Source of the DNA: an uncultured Bacteroidia bacterium
GTDB lineage: Bacteria; Bacteroidota; Bacteroidia; Bacteroidales; UBA932
Direction of reading: 5' to 3'
Assembly: GCA_902784965.1 (NCBI GenBank)
Contig: CACZWU010000004.1
Coordinates: 1-53,241 of the forward strand
DNA: 53,241 nucleotides
The notes under the pieces are model-generated. The model made no database searches. It saw nothing but the letters and a program-made list of their open reading frames with translations, and was not told where the DNA came from. Of the stretch, positions 10,578 through 27,281 are shown in pieces; position 1 is the stretch's first letter, and every line of letters begins with the position of its first letter. A program made the translations under genes and the position numbers.

Positions 10578-13190
<2,613 letters not shown>

Positions 13191-13193
13191 TGG

Positions 13194-15626
13194 ATGAAGA
13201 AACTCGACCTTTACCTGATCAAGAAGTTTGCCGGCCCCTTCGTGGCGGTCTTCTTCATCGTGGTGTTCTCACTGTCGATGCAGTTCCTGTGGCAGTTCAT
13301 CAACGAACTGGCAGGCAAAGGTCTGGGACTGGGCGTCATCTTCGAGTTCATGGGATGGGCCTCCTGCACGCTCTTCCCCAACGCCATTCCGCTGGCCACG
13401 CTGCTGGCCTCCATCATGACCCTGGGCAACCTGGGAGAGCGTAACGAGCTGCTGGCCATGAAAGCCGCCGGCGTGTCGCTGATGCGTATCCTCACCCCGC
13501 TGATGTTCATCTCGGTGCTGATCTCGATCGGCGCCTTTTTCGCGGCCGACCGCCTGGTGCCCCTGGCCTTCAACAAGGTCTATACGCTGCGGGCCGACAT
13601 CATCAACACCCGTGACGAGATCAAGATTCCGACCGGTATCTTCTACGACGGCATCGACGGCTACAAGCTCCGCATCTCCAGCCGCAACGAAGACACCGAC
13701 ATGATGTACGACCTGATCATCTACGACCATACCGACAACAGCGGAAACAGCAACAACATGACCGTGGCCGACAGCGGCCGCATCCGGGTCACACCCGACA
13801 AGCAAAACCTGATCTTCGACCTCTACAGCGGCTGCTCCTACACCGAGGAGAACAAGATGAGCTACCGCGACACCACCCTCAACCTGGTCCGTTCCCGCTT
13901 CGACGAACAGCAGCTCATCATCCCGCTCGACAACTACAGCTTCCAGCGCTCCGAGAAAGACAACTACGGCGATGAGATCAAGTCGCTCGGCCTGAAGCGC
14001 CTCCGCAACGACCGCGACTCCATCTCCCGCTACGTGGACACCATCGTGATGCGGCAGATGCCGCGTTTCATGTCTATGATGAGCATGCGATACCTCTACC
14101 AGCTCGACACCATCAAACCGGATTCGGCCTATATCGCCTGCCTCAACCTCGACAGCCTGAAACAGACGTTCACGCCCCAACAGGTGAAGCGCGCCAACCG
14201 CATGGCGGCAGAAAAGGCGGAGCAGGGCAAGGAGCAGGTGAAGCAGTTCTACATCGAGTCGCGCTACAACCTCAGCCTGATCCGGAAGATCGACATCGAG
14301 ATGATCCTCAAGTTCACGCTTTCGCTTTCCTGCCTGCTCTTCTTCTTCGTGGGCGCCCCGCTGGGAGCCATCATCCGGAAGGGCGGTCTGGGCACGCCGG
14401 TCATCATTTCGATCTTTTTCTACCTCATCTACTACATCATCGACATCATCGGCCGCAAGCTGGCCAAGGGCTCGCTCCCGCCTCTGGTGGGCACGCTGAT
14501 CTCGACAGCCATCCTCCTGCCGATCAGCATCCTCCTCACCCGCAAGTCGACCCAGGATTCCTCGCTCTTCAATCCCGATACCTACAAGGAGTTCTTCCGC
14601 CGCATCGGCAAGTGGATTTCGAAGCGCTACCACCGCTTCATCAACCTCTTCCGGAAGGGAGGCGGCAAGGTCCGCGTCGTGTATATGGGCACGCCCGAGT
14701 TCGCCGTGGCGCCGCTCGAGAAGCTGCTGCAGGCCGGCTATGAGGTGGTGGGCGTGGTCACGGCCACCGACAAGCCCGCCGGACGCGGCATGACCGTGCG
14801 CGAAAGCGCCGTCAAGCAATATGCCGTGGCCCACGGCATCCCCGTGCTGCAGCCCGAGAAACTCAAGGACCCCGCGTTCCTGGAGCAGCTCGCCGCACTG
14901 AAGGCCAACCTCTTCGTGGTGGTGGCCTTCCGCATGCTGCCCAAGGAGGTGTGGCAGATGCCGTCGATGGGTACCTTTAACCTCCATGCTTCGCTGCTGC
15001 CGCAGTACCGCGGCGCGGCGCCCATCAACTGGGCCATCATCCGGGGCGAGAAATTCACGGGTGTCACCACCTTCCTGCTCGACGAGCAGATCGACACGGG
15101 CAAGATCCTCTTCCAGGAGTCCTGTGCCATCGAAGACTACGAAGACGCCGGCGCGCTGCACGACAAACTGATGAAACTGGGCGCAGACCTGGTGCTCAAG
15201 ACGGTCGACGCCCTGGAGAACCACCGCACCAAGCCCTACGAGCAGACCCTCGGCTTCAACAAGACCCTCTATCCGGCACCGAAGCTCACCCGCGACAACT
15301 GCCACGTCGACTGGACGCGCAGCGCCCGCACCGTCCACCTGCTCATCCGCGGCCTGAGCCCCTACCCAGCCGCCTGGTCCACGCTCGTCAAGGACGATGG
15401 CACCCAACTCAGCGTCAAGCTCTACGACAGCTACGTCGTGCCCTGCCCGGACGACGATCCGCGCGTGCCCGGCCAGCTGACCACCGACGGCAAGACCTTC
15501 CTCGAGGTCCGCTGCGGCCGCAACGCCCTGCGCATCCTCAGTCTCCAGGCCTCCGGCAAGAAACGCATGGACATCGCCGACTTCCTCCGGGGCTTCCGCG
15601 AGCCGGAAAGCTATCGATTCGAATGA
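13194..15626 (+). CDS. LptF/LptG-family permease fused in frame to methionyl-tRNA formyltransferase
   Basis: A single 810-residue frame joins two complete proteins. Residues 1 to about 485 are a YjgP/YjgQ (LptF/G) lipopolysaccharide-export permease. Three N-terminal helices carry NAIPLATLLASIMTLGNLGE near residue 62, then come a periplasmic beta region (about 140-370) and three more helices (about 375-455). After a basic stretch and the linker RKGGGK, residues 493-810 are a full Fmt. It starts VRVVYMGTPEFAV, with the formyl-folate site Asn596-Leu-His598, the SLLPQYRGAAPINW loop and Asp634 in IDTGK, then the C-terminal tRNA-binding domain. No ATG lies at the normal Fmt start. A GTG (14679) or ATG (14685) could allow internal initiation. 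The LptF C-terminus is cytoplasmic, so a fused Fmt would sit in the right compartment. The stop overlaps the next ATG by 4 bp. Confidence 0.88.
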   Translation: MKKLDLYLIKKFAGPFVAVFFIVVFSLSMQFLWQFINELAGKGLGLGVIFEFMGWASCTLFPNAIPLATLLASIMTLGNLGERNELLAMKAAGVSLMRILTPLMFISVLISIGAFFAADRLVPLAFNKVYTLRADIINTRDEIKIPTGIFYDGIDGYKLRISSRNEDTDMMYDLIIYDHTDNSGNSNNMTVADSGRIRVTPDKQNLIFDLYSGCSYTEENKMSYRDTTLNLVRSRFDEQQLIIPLDNYSFQRSEKDNYGDEIKSLGLKRLRNDRDSISRYVDTIVMRQMPRFMSMMSMRYLYQLDTIKPDSAYIACLNLDSLKQTFTPQQVKRANRMAAEKAEQGKEQVKQFYIESRYNLSLIRKIDIEMILKFTLSLSCLLFFFVGAPLGAIIRKGGLGTPVIISIFFYLIYYIIDIIGRKLAKGSLPPLVGTLISTAILLPISILLTRKSTQDSSLFNPDTYKEFFRRIGKWISKRYHRFINLFRKGGGKVRVVYMGTPEFAVAPLEKLLQAGYEVVGVVTATDKPAGRGMTVRESAVKQYAVAHGIPVLQPEKLKDPAFLEQLAALKANLFVVVAFRMLPKEVWQMPSMGTFNLHASLLPQYRGAAPINWAIIRGEKFTGVTTFLLDEQIDTGKILFQESCAIEDYEDAGALHDKLMKLGADLVLKTVDALENHRTKPYEQTLGFNKTLYPAPKLTRDNCHVDWTRSARTVHLLIRGLSPYPAAWSTLVKDDGTQLSVKLYDSYVVPCPDDDPRVPGQLTTDGKTFLEVRCGRNALRILSLQASGKKRMDIADFLRGFREPESYRFE

Positions 15627-16264
15627 AAAAAGAGCATCCTTCCATCGTCATCCTCGCCGCAGGCGATTTTCCGAAGGCGGAGAAGCCGCTGCGGGCATTG
15701 CACGAAGCCGATCTGCGCATCTGCTGCGATTCGGCGGCGGAAGAGCTGGTGGCATACGGCCTGGAACCCGACCACATCGTCGGCGACCTTGACTCGCTGT
15801 CGCCCCAGTTCCGGGCGTGCTATGCAGATAGCATCACCCATGTCGAAGAGCAGGACGACAACGACCTGACCAAGACCTTCCATTATGCGCTGACGTTTCA
15901 TCCCTCGCGCATCACGATCCTGGGTGCGACCGGCAAGCGCGAAGACCATACGCTGGGCAACATCTCGCTGCTGCTCGACTATGCGCGGGAGGCGGACTGC
16001 CCCGTGGAGATCCTCACCGACTACGGCTATTTCAAGGCTATTTTCGATACGGTCACGCTGTCGTGCGCTCCCGGCCAGCCGGTTTCGATCTTCGCTTTCG
16101 ACAACTCCCTGAAAATAGAATCGGCCGGGCTGAAATACCCGACCGATCAGGTGCGTTTCGATTCGCTTTGGAAAGCGACGCTCAATGAGGCGCTTTCAGA
16201 GACATTTACGCTCAGGCTCTCACATCCCTGCGGCGTTCTTCTGTTTTTCGCCGATCACTTTTAG
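15623..16264 (+). CDS. Thiamine pyrophosphokinase
   Basis: This 213-residue enzyme converts thiamine and ATP to thiamine diphosphate. Family motifs are present: CCDSAAEELVAYGLEPDHIVGDLDSLS near residues 33-60 (read in two parts), QDDNDLTKTFHYA near 75-87, and GATGKREDHTLGN near 99-111. The C-terminal beta domain is short but ends normally. Its ATG overlaps the fused fmt stop (ATGA), so the two are probably translated together. Its last 45 bp overlap the end of the convergent threonine dehydrogenase gene. Confidence 0.9.
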   Translation: MKKEHPSIVILAAGDFPKAEKPLRALHEADLRICCDSAAEELVAYGLEPDHIVGDLDSLSPQFRACYADSITHVEEQDDNDLTKTFHYALTFHPSRITILGATGKREDHTLGNISLLLDYAREADCPVEILTDYGYFKAIFDTVTLSCAPGQPVSIFAFDNSLKIESAGLKYPTDQVRFDSLWKATLNEALSETFTLRLSHPCGVLLFFADHF

Positions 16265-20184: not shown

Positions 20185-21282
20185 TTATTTCGGAGCGAGT
20201 CGATAGAGGATGGCCGCCACAAAGGCGAAGACGATGTTGGGAAGCCACATCGCCAGGGCGGGTGCCATGATGCCTTTGAGGACGAACATCGAACTGAACT
20301 TCATGAACAGGATGTACGTGAAACTGATGGCCAGGCCGATACCGATGTTCAGGCCCAGGCCGCCGCGCTTCTTGCGCGAAGACAGCGAGACCGCGATGAT
20401 GGTCAGCACGAAAGCTGAGAAAGGCATCGCCAGGCGGTTGTTCTTCTCGATCAGGGCGTTTTTGACCGCATCGTCGCCCCGCATCTTCTGGACTTGGATC
20501 AAATCGTCAAGGTCGCTGCCGGACATCGATTCCACAGCGTTCTTGCGACGGTAGAAATCGTCGATGGTCAGGGCGATGACCGTGTCGAGTTCCCGGCCGG
20601 TACGGACCATTTCCGAATCGCCGTAGAAGTCACGGATGTAATAGTTGCGCAGCTTCCAGCCATGGAAAGTGGTGTCCCAGGCCGCCGAGGTCGCCGACAG
20701 TTTCGACACCAGCCGTCCGTTCTCCATCCGCTCGAGGGTGAAGCCGTAGGCCGTGTTGGCGGCGGAACTGAACTGCCCCACATAGACGAACTCGCCCGGC
20801 GAAAGCTGGTAGTGGATGTCACGCTTGGTGTTGGCCACAACGGTCTGCGGCTTGATGTATTTGTTCTCGAAATCGAGACGTTTCTGGTTGGCGGGCGGAA
20901 TGATGTAAAGACCCAACAGCAGCGAGAGCCCGCAGATGACGGCCGCCGAGAACATGTAGGGCGCCATGAGGCGGCGGAAACTGATGCCGCCCGAAAGCAT
21001 GGCCACGATCTCACTGTTCTGCGCCAGCTTCGAGGTGAAGAAGATGGCGGAGATGAACACCAGCAAGGGACTGAAGCTGTTGACGATCCATGGGATGAAT
21101 CCGCCGAAGTAATCGAAGACAATCTCCTTCACGGGCACGCTCTTCTCCACGAACTTGTCGATTTTCTCGCTCAGGTCGAAGATAACGACGATGGCCACGG
21201 CAATCACGATCGTGAAGAAGAAGGTTCCGAGGAACTTCTTGACGATGTATTTGTCGAGGATCTTGACCTGGGGTACGTTCAT
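20185..21282 (-). CDS. LptF/LptG-family lipopolysaccharide export permease
   Basis: This 365-residue inner-membrane permease has three N-terminal helices, a periplasmic beta-jellyroll region (about residues 130-265) and three C-terminal helices. It starts LDKYIVKKFLGTFFFTI and has FISAIFFTSKLAQNSEIVAMLSGG near residue 77 (split in two), the loop typical of LptF/G. It works with LptB2 and the partner permease to lift LPS from the inner membrane. It is nearer in form to LptG, while the fused permease at 13194 is probably the LptF-like partner. It starts 1 bp after tgt ends. Confidence 0.9.
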   Translation of the reverse strand: MNVPQVKILDKYIVKKFLGTFFFTIVIAVAIVVIFDLSEKIDKFVEKSVPVKEIVFDYFGGFIPWIVNSFSPLLVFISAIFFTSKLAQNSEIVAMLSGGISFRRLMAPYMFSAAVICGLSLLLGLYIIPPANQKRLDFENKYIKPQTVVANTKRDIHYQLSPGEFVYVGQFSSAANTAYGFTLERMENGRLVSKLSATSAAWDTTFHGWKLRNYYIRDFYGDSEMVRTGRELDTVIALTIDDFYRRKNAVESMSGSDLDDLIQVQKMRGDDAVKNALIEKNNRLAMPFSAFVLTIIAVSLSSRKKRGGLGLNIGIGLAISFTYILFMKFSSMFVLKGIMAPALAMWLPNIVFAFVAAILYRLAPK

Positions 21283-21283
21283 G

Positions 21284-22414
21284 CTAAAGTCGGGTGTCGA
21301 GCTTCCGGAGGGTCTGCTCCTTCCAGCTGCCGAAGTCGCCTGCCGCGATGTGCTCGCGCGCCTGCTCTACCAGATGGAGGTAAAAAGCCAGGTTGTGCTG
21401 GCTGGCGATCTGGGCGGCCAGCATCTCGCCGGCAGCGAACAGATGCCGCAGGTAGGCCTTGGTGTAGCAGTGGTCTACAAAAGATGTTCCATTCGGGTCG
21501 AGCGGGGAGAAGTCGTCGGCCCATTTCTTATTCTTGATGTGGATGATGCCTTCGCTGGTGAACAGCATCGCGTTGCGTCCGTTGCGGGTGGGCATCACGC
21601 AGTCGAACATGTCGACGCCGCGCGCTATGCCTTCCAGCAGGTTGGCGGGGGTGCCCACGCCCATCAGGTAACGGGGCCTGTCGTGCGGCAGCACGGGATG
21701 CAGGAGCTCCAGCATCTCGTACATCTTTTCGGTGGGCTCCCCCACGGCCAGTCCGCCGATGGCGTAGCCCTCACGCTCGAAAGCCATCGCGTGCTCGGCC
21801 GCCCGCAGGCGCAGGTCCGGATAGACGCAGCCCTGCACGATGGGGAAGAAGGTCTGGCTATAGCCATAGAGGGGCTCCGTCTCGTCGAAATGCCGGATGC
21901 AGCGCTCCAGCCAGCGCTGGGTGAGCCCGAGCGACTTCTCGGCATAGCGGTAGTCGGCGTCGCCGGGGCAGCACTCGTCGAGCGCCATCACGATGTCGGC
22001 ACCGATGATGCGCTGGGTATCCACGTTGTTTTCCGGCGTGAAAACGTGCCGCGATCCGTCGATGTGAGACTGGAAGATGCAACCCTCCTCGGTGAGCTTG
22101 CGGCTTTGGGCCAGCGAGAACACCTGGAATCCGCCGCTGTCAGTCAGGATAGGCCGGTCCCAGGAGGTAAAGCGGTGGAGGCCGCCGGCCTGCCGCAGGA
22201 TGTCGAGACCGGGACGCAGGTAGAGATGGTAGGTGTTGCCCAGGATGATCTGGGCGTGGATATCTTCGCGCAAGTCTTTGTGATAGACGCCTTTCACGGA
22301 ACCGACGGTGCCAACCGGCATGAAGATGGGCGTATCGATGCTGCCGTGGTCGGTGGTGATCCGGCCGCGACGGGCGTTCGTGGCCTTGTCCGTAGAAAGT
22401 ACTTCGAATTTCAT
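21284..22414 (-). CDS. tgt: tRNA-guanine transglycosylase lacking the zinc-site cysteines
   Basis: This 376-residue enzyme exchanges guanine-34 for preQ1 in tRNAs with GUN anticodons. The catalytic Asp92 (TDSGGFQVFS) and Asp271 (DCVMPTRNGR) are present, with GGLAVGEP near residue 220 for substrate binding. The zinc motif CxCxxC normally found just before YLRHLF is absent. Aligned positions are Gly309, Ser311 and Asp314, while the fourth ligand His340 (QHNLAFYL) remains. Similar loss is, as I recall, seen in other Bacteroidota Tgt proteins, so it may be a clade trait. It is first in an operon with lptG and the MFS gene. Confidence 0.95.
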   Translation of the reverse strand: MKFEVLSTDKATNARRGRITTDHGSIDTPIFMPVGTVGSVKGVYHKDLREDIHAQIILGNTYHLYLRPGLDILRQAGGLHRFTSWDRPILTDSGGFQVFSLAQSRKLTEEGCIFQSHIDGSRHVFTPENNVDTQRIIGADIVMALDECCPGDADYRYAEKSLGLTQRWLERCIRHFDETEPLYGYSQTFFPIVQGCVYPDLRLRAAEHAMAFEREGYAIGGLAVGEPTEKMYEMLELLHPVLPHDRPRYLMGVGTPANLLEGIARGVDMFDCVMPTRNGRNAMLFTSEGIIHIKNKKWADDFSPLDPNGTSFVDHCYTKAYLRHLFAAGEMLAAQIASQHNLAFYLHLVEQAREHIAAGDFGSWKEQTLRKLDTRL

Positions 22415-22493: not shown

Positions 22494-25400
22494 ATGAAAC
22501 GATTGCTTTGGACGGTCGCCCTGCTGGCCACTTTTGTTTTCAGTATGAATGCACAGAACAACAACTATTCACGCCTCTGGTCGAAGGTCCAGAAGGCGGA
22601 GAAGGAAGGCAAGCCCCAGACGGCTGCCGGCTACCTCAGGGAATTGGAACAGAAGACCATCACCGCCGGTGACGAGCTGGAGCAGCTGGCTGTCTCCGAG
22701 CGGCTTTACGAAAACCTCCAGAAATACAACTGGAAGGAAGCCAATGCGTACTATTCCACCTACGCGACGCTCAACCGCCGGGTCCTCTCCGACAGCCTGG
22801 ATGCCTATGTCGTCAAGTACAAAGACCATCCCCGCGTGATGATGCTGCTCTACAGGCAGTTGCAGAACCACAAGGAGGCGGTGGACCGCCGCTCGCGCAG
22901 CGTCGTGCGCGGCGAGGACTATCTGGCCGTCCGCCGCGAGGCAGAAGAACTGCTCCGGCACAAACGGGTGGGCAACTACAAGAAAAACATCGAAGCGATG
23001 ATCGCTTCGATGGATTCCCGCTCGCTCTATACCTCCTCCCACTCGACGATGGCTCCCACCCAAGGAGTGGAATATACCATCGACACCCGCAACGTCGACA
23101 AAGTCCTGGTGCGTGTCTACCGGATGAACGACGATGTGGTGTTCCTGCCCCACATGGGTGACGCCTCGCTTTCGATGCTGGAAAAGAACGCCACCCTGCT
23201 CGCTTCCACCGAAGTGACGGGCTTCAAGAAAGAATACAACATCGGTGAGCGGCAGAAGACCACGGTGGATTTCCCCACACCCGGCATCTACGTGATCCGT
23301 TTCGCGACGGCCGACAACGAAGAAGTCTGCTATGAAAGCGTCAACGTGAGCAACGTGGTGGGCGCCCTCCGCATCCGCGACGGCCAGCCCGAGGTCTACG
23401 CGGCCGATTTCACCACGGGCAAGCCTTTCGGCCAGGGGAACTATTCCATCTTCAAGAACCTGTACGACAAAAATAAGTCCAGCATCCTGAAGATGAAACC
23501 CTTCCTTACCGGCCATTTCGCCGGGGAGGGTTTCACGGCCATCGATGCCGGCCCTGCGACCACCGACTACAAGAACAATTACCTGCTGCGGATCGAAGAG
23601 GACCGGGACATCTACGCCCCGCTGATCGGCGGCCTGCAGGATGAGGAATGGTATGCCCGCAAGAGCAGCAGCTACCGCTACGACCATTCCATCATCTTCA
23701 CCGACCGCAACCTCTACAAGCCCACCGATACCATCTATTTCAAGGTGATCTGCTACAAGTCTTCCGAGACGGAAGGCGAAGTGCTGGCCAACCAGAGCAT
23801 CGTGCTGACGCTCCGGCACAGTTCCTCACCCGACACGGTGGCCCAGGTAAAACTCCTGACCAACGACATGGGCTCCGCCAGCGGCTTCTTCACCCTGCCG
23901 GAAGGCTGCAAGAACGGGCGCTACATCATCTCGGAAGGATACAATGCCCGGAAATCCATCCGGGTGGAAGAATACAAGCGGCCCAATTTCAGCGTGACGC
24001 TGCAGCCCGTGGAGGATGTGCTCTGCTTCGGCGACGTGGTCAAGCAAACAGGTACGCTCAAGAGTTACGCCGGCTTCTCGGTAGCGGGCGGCACCATTGA
24101 ATACACCCTCCGCCGCAGCTGCATGGTCCTTTCCAAGGCCGGCTGGTGGAACTCCTGGTACGAGAAGCTGGGCGAAGGCAGCACCCTGTCGGACAACCAG
24201 GGAAACTTCGAGATCGTGTTCCCGGCCGAACGTCCGGTGTACAAGGGCTACCGCCCCGAAGACTACCAGGACCTGTACCGGGCCTTCTATACCATCCAGG
24301 TCCGGGCCGTTGACCCGCAGGGCGAAGTCCACGAATCGCAGATTTCCGTGCCAGTGGCCGACATCCCGCTCGACCTCAACATCGAACTGCCCGAGGGAGA
24401 GAATTTCGACGGACGGCTCATCGTCGACAAGGACCAGGTGAAATCCGTCCTGGTCAGAGGCACCACCCTCAACGGAACGCCCTACCGCTTTACGGGCGAC
24501 TGGACCGTGACCGACCAGGAAGGGAAAGAAGCCGCCAAGGGTACTTTCACCTCCAACGAGCCCGTGGCCTTCGATTTCGGATCCCTGCCTTCCGGCCTCT
24601 ACGAGATGAGGGCCCGCACCGAATACCGCGGCCGCGAGATCGACACCCGTCGGAAGATCATCGTGATGAGCACGGACGACCGGCAGCTTCCCTTCGAATC
24701 GCGCTATTTCTACTATCCGGTGAAGACCGAAGGAGAGATCGAATTCGTACTGGGCACTTCGGAAGAGGATCTGTATTTCGAATTGGAGATCTTCGACAAC
24801 GCACAGGTGCTTTACCATGAAAGCGTCCACCTGCAGAACGAGATGCGCAAGTTCCGGATTCCTTACGATGCTGCCTGGCGCAGCGCCGTGAAGATGGGAA
24901 TCTATGGTATCCGTGACGGCGAAATCATCAGCCACCGCTATGAATTCCGGCGTCCGGGCGATGTCCGCCTCGACATCGCCATCGAGACCTTCCGCGACAA
25001 GACCACGCCCGGCGCACAGGAAGAAATGACCATCCGGGCGCCGGAGGGCACCGAGATGCTGGTCTCGATCTACGACGTGACGACCGACCGCTATGGCGCC
25101 AATTCCTTCTATTTCCGCCCGCTGCAGGAGTATCCGTCGGTAAGTGCTCCCGCCATCCATTCGTCGCTCGACGCCTGGGGCGCCGTGTCGGTCAATCAGA
25201 TGATGCGGAGCGCCGGCGCCAATGGCGTGATGGAAGACATGCTGATGGCTGAAGCCCCCGCCATGTACAAAAGCGCCGCCGTTGAAGAGAGCGCCGACGA
25301 CGCAGCGGTAAGCGAGGAGGAAGAGGAGGCGCCCGAATTCGAGGGTCGTACCAACTTCAGCGAGCTGATCGCCTTCTACCCGCACATCCGTGCAGAGAAG

Positions 25401-27281
25401 GGCGGTGTGACCAAGGTCAGCTACACCACCAACGACCTGCTGACCACTTTCCGGGTCCTGGTGATGGCGCACGACAAGCGCCTGTTCACCGGCGATGCCG
25501 AAGCGGAATTCATCGTCCAGAAAGAGCTGATGGTGATGCCGTCCGTGCCGCTCTTCGCCACGAAGGGCGACCGCTTGGTACTCAAGAGCAAGATCGTGAA
25601 TCTGAGCAACAAGGAGATCAAGGGAACGGCGTACGTGGAGATCCTCGACGACCAGGGCAAAAAGCTGAAACTCAAGGGAACAGCCAGCCAGAAGAAGACG
25701 CTGCTGGCCGGCGCCCAGGACGAAGTGGCCTGGGGCATCGAAGTGCCGGGCGGCACCGGCAAGCTGACGGTCCGCATCTGGTTCGCCACCCCGACGGCGA
25801 GCGACGGCGAACAGCACGAGATCCAGATCGTGCCCGACACCATCACCCTGACCGAAGCGGCCTCGTTCGTCATGGGCCAGGGCAAGGACCACGCCTATTA
25901 CGAGAAGCAGCTCCGCAAGCAGTTCGGCGCTGCCCATCCCAAGATCGAATATGCCGAATACTCCACGCTCGACGCCGTGAAAGAGTCGTTGCCCGCCGCT
26001 GTCAAGCCCGCGTGCGAAAACGCCATCAACTGGATCAACCAGCTCTACATCAACCAGATGCGCAATTTCGTGCTGCAAGATGACGCCGCGGATTACGTCC
26101 CGTTCCGCGACCAGGCCTTCTCTGCGCTCAAGACTTTCCAGGAGAGCGACGGACGCTTCTGCTGGTTCCGCGGCATGCCCAGCAGCGACATGATCACGCT
26201 CTACTTCCTCGAGAAGCTGGGCCAGCTGCGGCAGGTGGGTGCCATCACCCTCTCGGACGACGAGTTGCAGATGGTACGCAAGGCGGCCGCAGCCGTGGAC
26301 GACCGCGTGGTGGTCCGCAACGCCCAAAGCAAGGAATTTCATCCCTTCTCCTACATCCGCGACTTTGCCATCCGCAGCCTGTGGTTCGACATCCCGCTGA
26401 GCGACAAGGCCAAGGCCGTGTTTGAGAAATATGTCGACAAGAGCGGCGACGGCTGGCAGGATCTCTCCATCCTCGAGAAGGCGCAAATGTGCAACACCAT
26501 GCTGCGCGCCGACGGAACGCCGTACGCCGACAAACGCTTCGGCCAGCGGATCAAGCTCCTGCGCGAATCGCTCAAGGACTACGCCGTGGAGAACCCGACC
26601 ATCGGCTGCTACTTCCCCAATGCGGTGATGCCGTACCGGGGCCTGATGAACAGCGAGATCTACGCCCACGCCCAGCTGATGGAGCTCTTCGCCTCACTCA
26701 AGGAGCGCAAGATGGTCGACGGTATCGCCCAGTGGCTGCTGCTGCAGAAGCACAACCAGGCCTGGGAGAACACCGTGGCCACGACCGACGCGGTCCATGC
26801 CCTCATCGCCAGCAAGGCCAAAGACCTGAAGCTCGGTGCCGTGTACTACACCTACACTACGGAACTCAGCCGCGTGAAGGCCTCCGCCAACGAGCTCTCG
26901 GTCCGCCGCCGCTTCGTCCGCAACGACCACGAAACCCTCGTCGACGGCACCCCGCTCAAGGTGGGCGACAAGATCACCGTCTACTACGACATCGACAACC
27001 GCGAGAACCGCAGTTTCGTGCAGATGCGCGCCATGCGGCCGGCTTGCTTCTACCCGGTGGACGAGCGGTCCTATTTTACCTGGTGGGGCTACTACCGCGA
27101 GGTCAAGCCGTCCGAGACCAACTACTACTGGGAGCTGCTGCCCGAGGAAAAGACCACGGTCGTCGAGCAGTTCTACGTACAGCAGGAAGGCACCTTCAAC
27201 ACCGGCCTGGTTGAGATCGAATGCCTCTACGCCAAGGAATACCGCGGCCACACCGACGCAACAACTTTTACATCAAAATAA
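22494..27281 (+). CDS. Alpha-2-macroglobulin-family secreted protein without thioester
   Basis: This 1595-residue secreted protein has the signal peptide MKRLLWTVALLATFVFSMNA, then a helical N-terminal region, MG domains with the MG2 signature TDRNLYKPTDTIYFK near residue 402, and a bait-like acidic stretch near 925-945. The A2M domain is near 960 (FYPHIRAEKGGVTKV), and an alpha-toroid-like region lies about 1160-1440 (GRFCWFRGMPSSDMITLYFL). No CxEQ thioester motif is found, so covalent trapping of proteases is unlikely. It may be a structural or inhibitor protein in the periplasm or outer membrane. ATG 22494 is preferred over 22449 because it begins the signal peptide. It abuts the phosphatase gene with no gap. 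Confidence 0.88.
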   Translation: MKRLLWTVALLATFVFSMNAQNNNYSRLWSKVQKAEKEGKPQTAAGYLRELEQKTITAGDELEQLAVSERLYENLQKYNWKEANAYYSTYATLNRRVLSDSLDAYVVKYKDHPRVMMLLYRQLQNHKEAVDRRSRSVVRGEDYLAVRREAEELLRHKRVGNYKKNIEAMIASMDSRSLYTSSHSTMAPTQGVEYTIDTRNVDKVLVRVYRMNDDVVFLPHMGDASLSMLEKNATLLASTEVTGFKKEYNIGERQKTTVDFPTPGIYVIRFATADNEEVCYESVNVSNVVGALRIRDGQPEVYAADFTTGKPFGQGNYSIFKNLYDKNKSSILKMKPFLTGHFAGEGFTAIDAGPATTDYKNNYLLRIEEDRDIYAPLIGGLQDEEWYARKSSSYRYDHSIIFTDRNLYKPTDTIYFKVICYKSSETEGEVLANQSIVLTLRHSSSPDTVAQVKLLTNDMGSASGFFTLPEGCKNGRYIISEGYNARKSIRVEEYKRPNFSVTLQPVEDVLCFGDVVKQTGTLKSYAGFSVAGGTIEYTLRRSCMVLSKAGWWNSWYEKLGEGSTLSDNQGNFEIVFPAERPVYKGYRPEDYQDLYRAFYTIQVRAVDPQGEVHESQISVPVADIPLDLNIELPEGENFDGRLIVDKDQVKSVLVRGTTLNGTPYRFTGDWTVTDQEGKEAAKGTFTSNEPVAFDFGSLPSGLYEMRARTEYRGREIDTRRKIIVMSTDDRQLPFESRYFYYPVKTEGEIEFVLGTSEEDLYFELEIFDNAQVLYHESVHLQNEMRKFRIPYDAAWRSAVKMGIYGIRDGEIISHRYEFRRPGDVRLDIAIETFRDKTTPGAQEEMTIRAPEGTEMLVSIYDVTTDRYGANSFYFRPLQEYPSVSAPAIHSSLDAWGAVSVNQMMRSAGANGVMEDMLMAEAPAMYKSAAVEESADDAAVSEEEEEAPEFEGRTNFSELIAFYPHIRAEKGGVTKVSYTTNDLLTTFRVLVMAHDKRLFTGDAEAEFIVQKELMVMPSVPLFATKGDRLVLKSKIVNLSNKEIKGTAYVEILDDQGKKLKLKGTASQKKTLLAGAQDEVAWGIEVPGGTGKLTVRIWFATPTASDGEQHEIQIVPDTITLTEAASFVMGQGKDHAYYEKQLRKQFGAAHPKIEYAEYSTLDAVKESLPAAVKPACENAINWINQLYINQMRNFVLQDDAADYVPFRDQAFSALKTFQESDGRFCWFRGMPSSDMITLYFLEKLGQLRQVGAITLSDDELQMVRKAAAAVDDRVVVRNAQSKEFHPFSYIRDFAIRSLWFDIPLSDKAKAVFEKYVDKSGDGWQDLSILEKAQMCNTMLRADGTPYADKRFGQRIKLLRESLKDYAVENPTIGCYFPNAVMPYRGLMNSEIYAHAQLMELFASLKERKMVDGIAQWLLLQKHNQAWENTVATTDAVHALIASKAKDLKLGAVYYTYTTELSRVKASANELSVRRRFVRNDHETLVDGTPLKVGDKITVYYDIDNRENRSFVQMRAMRPACFYPVDERSYFTWWGYYREVKPSETNYYWELLPEEKTTVVEQFYVQQEGTFNTGLVEIECLYAKEYRGHTDATTFTSK

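Follow-up and report, generated by a model that had tools for sequence, protein, structure and literature searches.

The window analysed here, a stretch of 53,241 nucleotides from an uncultured Bacteroidia bacterium whose genome is a draft MAG (59 contigs, 78% complete), carries a gene in which a permease of the LptF/LptG family and a methionyl-tRNA formyltransferase (Fmt) are joined in one frame (Table 1). On the 810-aa product, Pfam identified LptF_LptG at residues 7-450, Formyl_trans_N at 494-668 and Formyl_trans_C at 697-802. The in-frame LptF-Fmt fusion is real and both of its halves are intact; the preliminary description, which had been made from the nucleotide sequence and had claimed one uninterrupted frame with a full permease and a full Fmt, was borne out by the Pfam and TIGR00460 matches and by the recurrence of the frame in the genus. 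A predicted structure of the fusion (five sequences; mean pLDDT 37, pTM 0.25) supports no reading.

Table 1. Features of the fusion locus and its surroundings in the window, with the long-tailed LptF loci used for comparison (the latter given as locus and positions)
Feature	Coordinates	Strand	Basis or remark
alaS, alanyl-tRNA synthetase	10578..13190	+	PF01411, 629.4 bits; 3 bases upstream of the fusion
LptF-Fmt fusion gene, 810 aa	13194..15626	+	one open frame, stop-free
LptF/LptG-family permease domain, residues 1-450	13194..14543	+	PF03739, 218.4 bits; hydropathy
Basic tail and linker, residues 451-492, ending RKGGGK	14544..14669	+	pN/pS; charge count
Methionyl-tRNA formyltransferase domain, residues 493-810	14670..15623	+	TIGR00460; solved-structure matches
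tpk, thiamin pyrophosphokinase	15623..16264	+	PF04263, PF21275
Second LptF/LptG-family permease, probable partner	20185..21282	-	PF03739, 246.8 bits
tgt, queuine tRNA-ribosyltransferase	21284..22414	-	PF01702, 502 bits; adjoins the second permease
Long-tailed LptF	L147:347-2248	-	
Long-tailed LptF	L148:569-2509	+	
Long-tailed LptF	L136:2769-4655	-	
Long-tailed LptF	L153:9-1868	+	

The start of tpk overlaps the stop of the fusion by 4 bases (window 15623-15626). Since tgt adjoins the second permease, both exporter permeases of the window lie beside genes of tRNA enzymes. Further along, a 947-aa open frame (window 23826-26669, minus strand) was without a Pfam match at E 0.001.

The permease half covered positions 2-352 of the 353 of PF03739, with 218.4 bits against a cut-off of 27.9. 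Hydropathy windows were observed at residues 14-32, 43-61/60-78, 86-104/99-117, 376-394, 402-420 and 431-449, which on our reading of the hydropathy fit six membrane segments before the basic tail, while a further window at 561-579 lies inside the Fmt half and was taken as a buried core strand of it. Residues 451-492, past the last membrane segment, contain 11 K/R against 3 D/E, as expected for the cytoplasmic side of the membrane, and the C-terminus of LptF is cytoplasmic, so that the arrangement is topologically possible, as had been proposed. Glu82 and Glu85, which follow the second membrane segment and precede the third and are presumably of functional importance, did not vary among the 70 fused loci. 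The scores on the LptF equivalog (TIGR04407, 130.6 bits) and on the LptG equivalog (TIGR04408, 104.3 bits) were below their cut-offs of 230 and 240, and because both were missed the permease is assigned to the LptF/G family and "LptF" is used as a name of convenience. The solved proteins nearest to the front part were LptF and LptG permeases, much weaker as matches than those of the Fmt half.

Fmt is a soluble housekeeping enzyme. The Fmt half matched the NCBIfam fmt model TIGR00460 with 245.1 bits (cut-off 201.5) at residues 494-804, profile 2-307 of 315, and its best solved-structure matches were 4iqf (4e-60) and E. coli Fmt, 1fmt (4e-57). Asn596, His598 and Asp634, which we take to be the catalytic residues and which had been described as intact, were identical in all 70 fused loci, as was Arg531, presumably a functional loop residue; K789 was kept in 67 and W707 in 61 of them. 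In the alignment to 1fmt, which took in the catalytic residues as well, the GRG-loop Arg fell on residue 42.

At the joint the peptide reads ...INLFRKGGGK-VRVVYMGTPEF, and the DNA at the expected Fmt start reads AAG GTC CGC GTC GTG TAT ATG, where GTC, not a start codon, comes next after the linker. The absence of a junction stop and of the usual Fmt start had been stated before, and scans of the frame and of the start window agreed that a plausible separate start is absent. A start codon was present 3-14 codons before MGTPEF in 39/39 separate loci (ATG in 34/39); in the same start window, any start was found in 26/70 fused loci (ATG in 10/70), and in the genus of the window (g1) in 4 of 33 fused loci, none of them ATG. 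Across 17 species of the genus, residues 451-491 were free of indels with a mean identity of 86%, and pN/pS, from pooled, uncorrected Nei-Gojobori counts made with our own script, was 0.179 there, which is lower than the 0.384 of LptF and similar to the 0.220 of Fmt, indicating that the joint is under purifying selection. A frameshift product ending LptF early was rejected as a candidate: the other two frames contained 0-1 stops per species over codons 451-500 in the 17 species, so a conserved early stop is absent.

Exactly one locus over the fmt cut-off was found in 23 of 24 genomes searched, the 24th being G033, in which the fusion is split between contigs, and a second fmt over the cut-off was found in none of the 24. 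Nineteen of the 23 are fused genomes, in which the fusion is that single locus. Twelve fused genomes were searched for further components, and each possessed exactly two PF03739 loci, of which one is fused and the other free, together with one LptB over the cut-off and at least one deformylase. With the fusion as the only fmt found and deformylase kept, formylation seems to be retained, with its enzyme tied to one of the two permeases, and we infer from the same two facts that the Fmt half formylates initiator Met-tRNA. The LptD model PF04453 had no match in the 12 fused genomes; among 14 controls it matched only E. coli and Caulobacter, with no match in Bacteroides ihuae, so this phylum seems to be out of its reach.

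The preliminary description had proposed to look for the same junction in related genomes, and of the 40 genus genomes examined, 37 carried the fused frame. In one of these, G033, the fused gene was split by contig ends past the joint, in two pieces, and in G009, G025 and G027 (65, 93 and 51% complete) neither a fused nor a separate locus was found in this search of 40 genomes. In the family sample, the fused frame was present in at least 50 of 149 genomes and in 9 of 25 genera among the matches listed, the genera being, by our reading of the match table, g1, g2, g3, g5, g6, g15, g16, g22 and g23. Two of the 50 (G033 and G135) matched part-way past the joint only, and G082, G113, G124 and G144, which aligned over most or all of the length with stops inside, were not counted as fused. 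Outside the family the fusion was not seen among the matches listed for 394 genomes of the class, 387 of the order and 295 of the phylum; these samples, searched at E 0.001, 1e-60 and 1e-120, overlap, and matches were sorted by E-value, a whole-length match being expected near the top. In one genome of the order sample (G584) the two genes were adjacent with stops in between.

Loci were called fused or separate by the stops inside and by our own scan of 109 loci; in G166, for instance, the actual Fmt frame was 324 despite a listed read-through of 953. In total 111 family loci were fetched, of which L129 and L137 had no Fmt in the stretch, leaving 70 fused and 39 separate. Among the 70 fused loci, 33 come from the genus, which has 37 genomes with the frame, and 37 from the 38 other genomes. 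As a fused state was part of the reason for choosing the 109 loci, 70/109 is not a frequency, for which the family sample is to be used.

The gene order alaS-lptF-fmt-tpk was common to fused and separate loci. Among the 109 loci, a co-directional alaS preceded lptF in 100/100 of those where alaS was found, and tpk, where found, followed fmt and was again co-directional in 73/74. In the separate loci, with each fmt gene taken to begin at the first ATG (or alternative start codon) of the start window, lptF and fmt were in different frames in 35/39 and overlapped in 26/39; in L136, also separate, they were about 1.2 kb apart. A quick tree with SH-aLRT support only and one long branch (L136) was made from 44 fused and 34 separate loci, 78 of the 109; 4 partial loci were excluded, large genera were represented by fewer loci, and the joint was mostly omitted. 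Four changes between the fused and the separate state were needed on it, and four were also forced by the starred branches. The AU test rejected all fused rows as one clade (p-AU 2e-7), and also when the single g23 row was taken out (7e-5), this test having been framed after the tree was seen. The fusion thus probably arose more than once: the count of changes alone cannot separate gain from loss, but with separate genes in the relatives sampled from outside the family, repeated fusion offers the simplest account. Candidates for recent fusion were observed in g23 (separate L123, fused L105) and in g2 (separate L126, fused L092), the fused form being represented by one genome in each. The fusion would have arisen when adjacent, often overlapping genes of an operon were joined through loss of the lptF stop and the fmt start.

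Taken as a whole, the locus most probably encodes one bifunctional inner-membrane protein, an exporter permease with Fmt, derived from the fusion of two operon genes. Its N-terminal half would be one of the two transmembrane subunits of an LPS exporter of the LptB2FG type, and its C-terminal tail would leave the membrane on the cytoplasmic side and continue through the basic linker into a complete Fmt, which would act on initiator Met-tRNA. The whole chain is expected to be present in the cell at the membrane, with both halves active, a picture drawn from the gene sequences. Because no other Fmt was found and only one other LptF/G permease is present, Fmt would be made one-for-one with the exporter subunit and be located at the inner membrane. 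The preliminary description had tied formylation to the LPS exporter: the in-frame fusion upholds this for the physical tether, provided that the chain stays whole, and makes functional coupling of formylation to LPS export possible.

Regarding why the genes were joined, a neutral ratchet is likelier than a functional tie and has somewhat better than an even chance of being the reason. Here the fusion would be a harmless accident of overlapping genes, with the halves working independently and the tether having no role, which is compatible with a bifunctional protein. The overlap of most separate pairs means that small changes can join the genes, re-splitting would be hard after the fmt start was lost, and fused and separate relatives coexist within g2 and g23. 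However, the neighbouring joints, equally tight, were never fused: alaS-lptF (placeable in 100 of the 109 loci) had a median gap of 9 bases and the same frame in 51/100, with 0/100 fused, and fmt-tpk (placeable in 73) had a median gap of -7 bases with 0/73 fused, whereas lptF-fmt changed at least 4 times on the tree, a comparison which is not decisive because the loci were picked partly as fused and the other joints may be more constrained.

The opposite idea, that the fusion was selected because a tethered only-copy Fmt couples translation initiation to envelope export, appears unlikely. If true, the coupling could act by bringing formylation to the membrane at which envelope proteins are synthesised, or the state of the exporter or the 1:1 dosage could set the supply of formyl-Met-tRNA, and its footprint would be the repeated change at the lptF-fmt joint with none at the two neighbouring joints.

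It is improbable that two products come from the one frame, Fmt being freed by an internal start (GTG 14679 or ATG 14685) or by proteolysis of the linker. Both codons are present and are the first possible starts after the linker, which is itself rich in K/R, and ATG occurs in the start window of 7/10 fused loci in g22 and 3/10 in g6. The full counts of any start in that window outside g1 were 8/10 in g22, 5/10 in g6, and, with none of them ATG, 4/10 in g15, 3/3 in g16, 1/1 in g2 and 1/1 in g5, so internal initiation may be possible in those genera. In the window, however, the two codons are 2 and 0 codons from MGTPEF, inside the expected first strand of Fmt, whereas the separate loci all have a start 3-14 codons ahead of it; the GTG at -2 was found in 8/33 loci of the genus, and the linker is strongly conserved within it. 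ATG 14685 encodes the Met of MGTPEF itself; separate fmt genes have this Met too, behind the start codon proper to them, so its presence does not speak for internal initiation.

That the Fmt half might instead be an ArnA-like N-formyltransferase of an LPS sugar, acting on the cargo of the exporter, has a functional logic and would agree with the 154.5 bits on the ArnA equivalog model, yet it is very improbable. The ArnA cut-off of 777 is far above this score while the Fmt equivalog cut-off was passed, all six top solved relatives were Fmt proteins, no other Fmt was found in these genomes, which keep deformylase, and the operon position of the half is that of the separate fmt genes; on these grounds an LPS-sugar formyltransferase was ruled out. 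An assembly or sequencing error, conceivable for a draft of 59 contigs at 78% completeness and for the single genomes behind L092 and L105, is refuted for the genus by independent assemblies with the same frame, which occurs in at least 75 distinct genomes (37 of the genus and 38 more) of about 60 to 100% listed completeness, and its probability for the window is negligible.

With the bifunctional protein as the preferred reading, the only Fmt copy found has become a covalent part of an LPS-exporter permease across the genus and in other genera of the family, by separate events on the tree. This could provide a natural system for asking whether a membrane-anchored Fmt can formylate initiator tRNA, and whether there is a link between translation initiation and envelope export. 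The fusion further suggests that the cytoplasmic tail of LptF tolerates a 35 kDa enzyme. No description of an LptF-Fmt fusion was found in the open-licence literature, judged by titles and abstract openings, and the preliminary description likewise knew of no such protein. Two known families are combined in a conserved, apparently recurrent architecture for which no description was found.

With Fmt (TIGR00460; E. coli 1fmt/2fmt) the fusion shares the two domains, the Asn-His-Asp residues and the GRG-loop Arg, but its Fmt is without an own start codon and is joined to a membrane permease. Compared with the LptF/LptG permeases (PF03739), it has the whole permease profile with E82 and E85, whereas its C-terminal tail carries an enzyme and it missed both equivalog cut-offs. 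Long-tailed LptF proteins, which occur in other Bacteroidales and in some genera of the family (Table 1), also have a C-terminal extension, of about 155-180 residues past the profile; it is not Fmt and is without a Pfam match, while the fusion has only about 42 residues from permease to Fmt. ArnA, in which a formyltransferase is combined with a decarboxylase/oxidase, likewise has Fmt-like domains within a fusion that belongs to LPS chemistry; it is soluble and acts on a sugar, and LptF-Fmt scored far below its cut-off.

One study (PMC11130926) places PF03739 among candidate transporters of queuosine precursors; there, the LptG/F proteins tested did not complement, and its authors leave expression problems as a possible cause. 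That study also describes proteins in which members of three transporter families other than PF03739 are fused to TGT (PMC11130926). Like the LptF-Fmt fusion, these join a transporter domain to a tRNA enzyme, but as presented there the enzyme is another one and the logic is salvage of queuosine precursors (PMC11130926).
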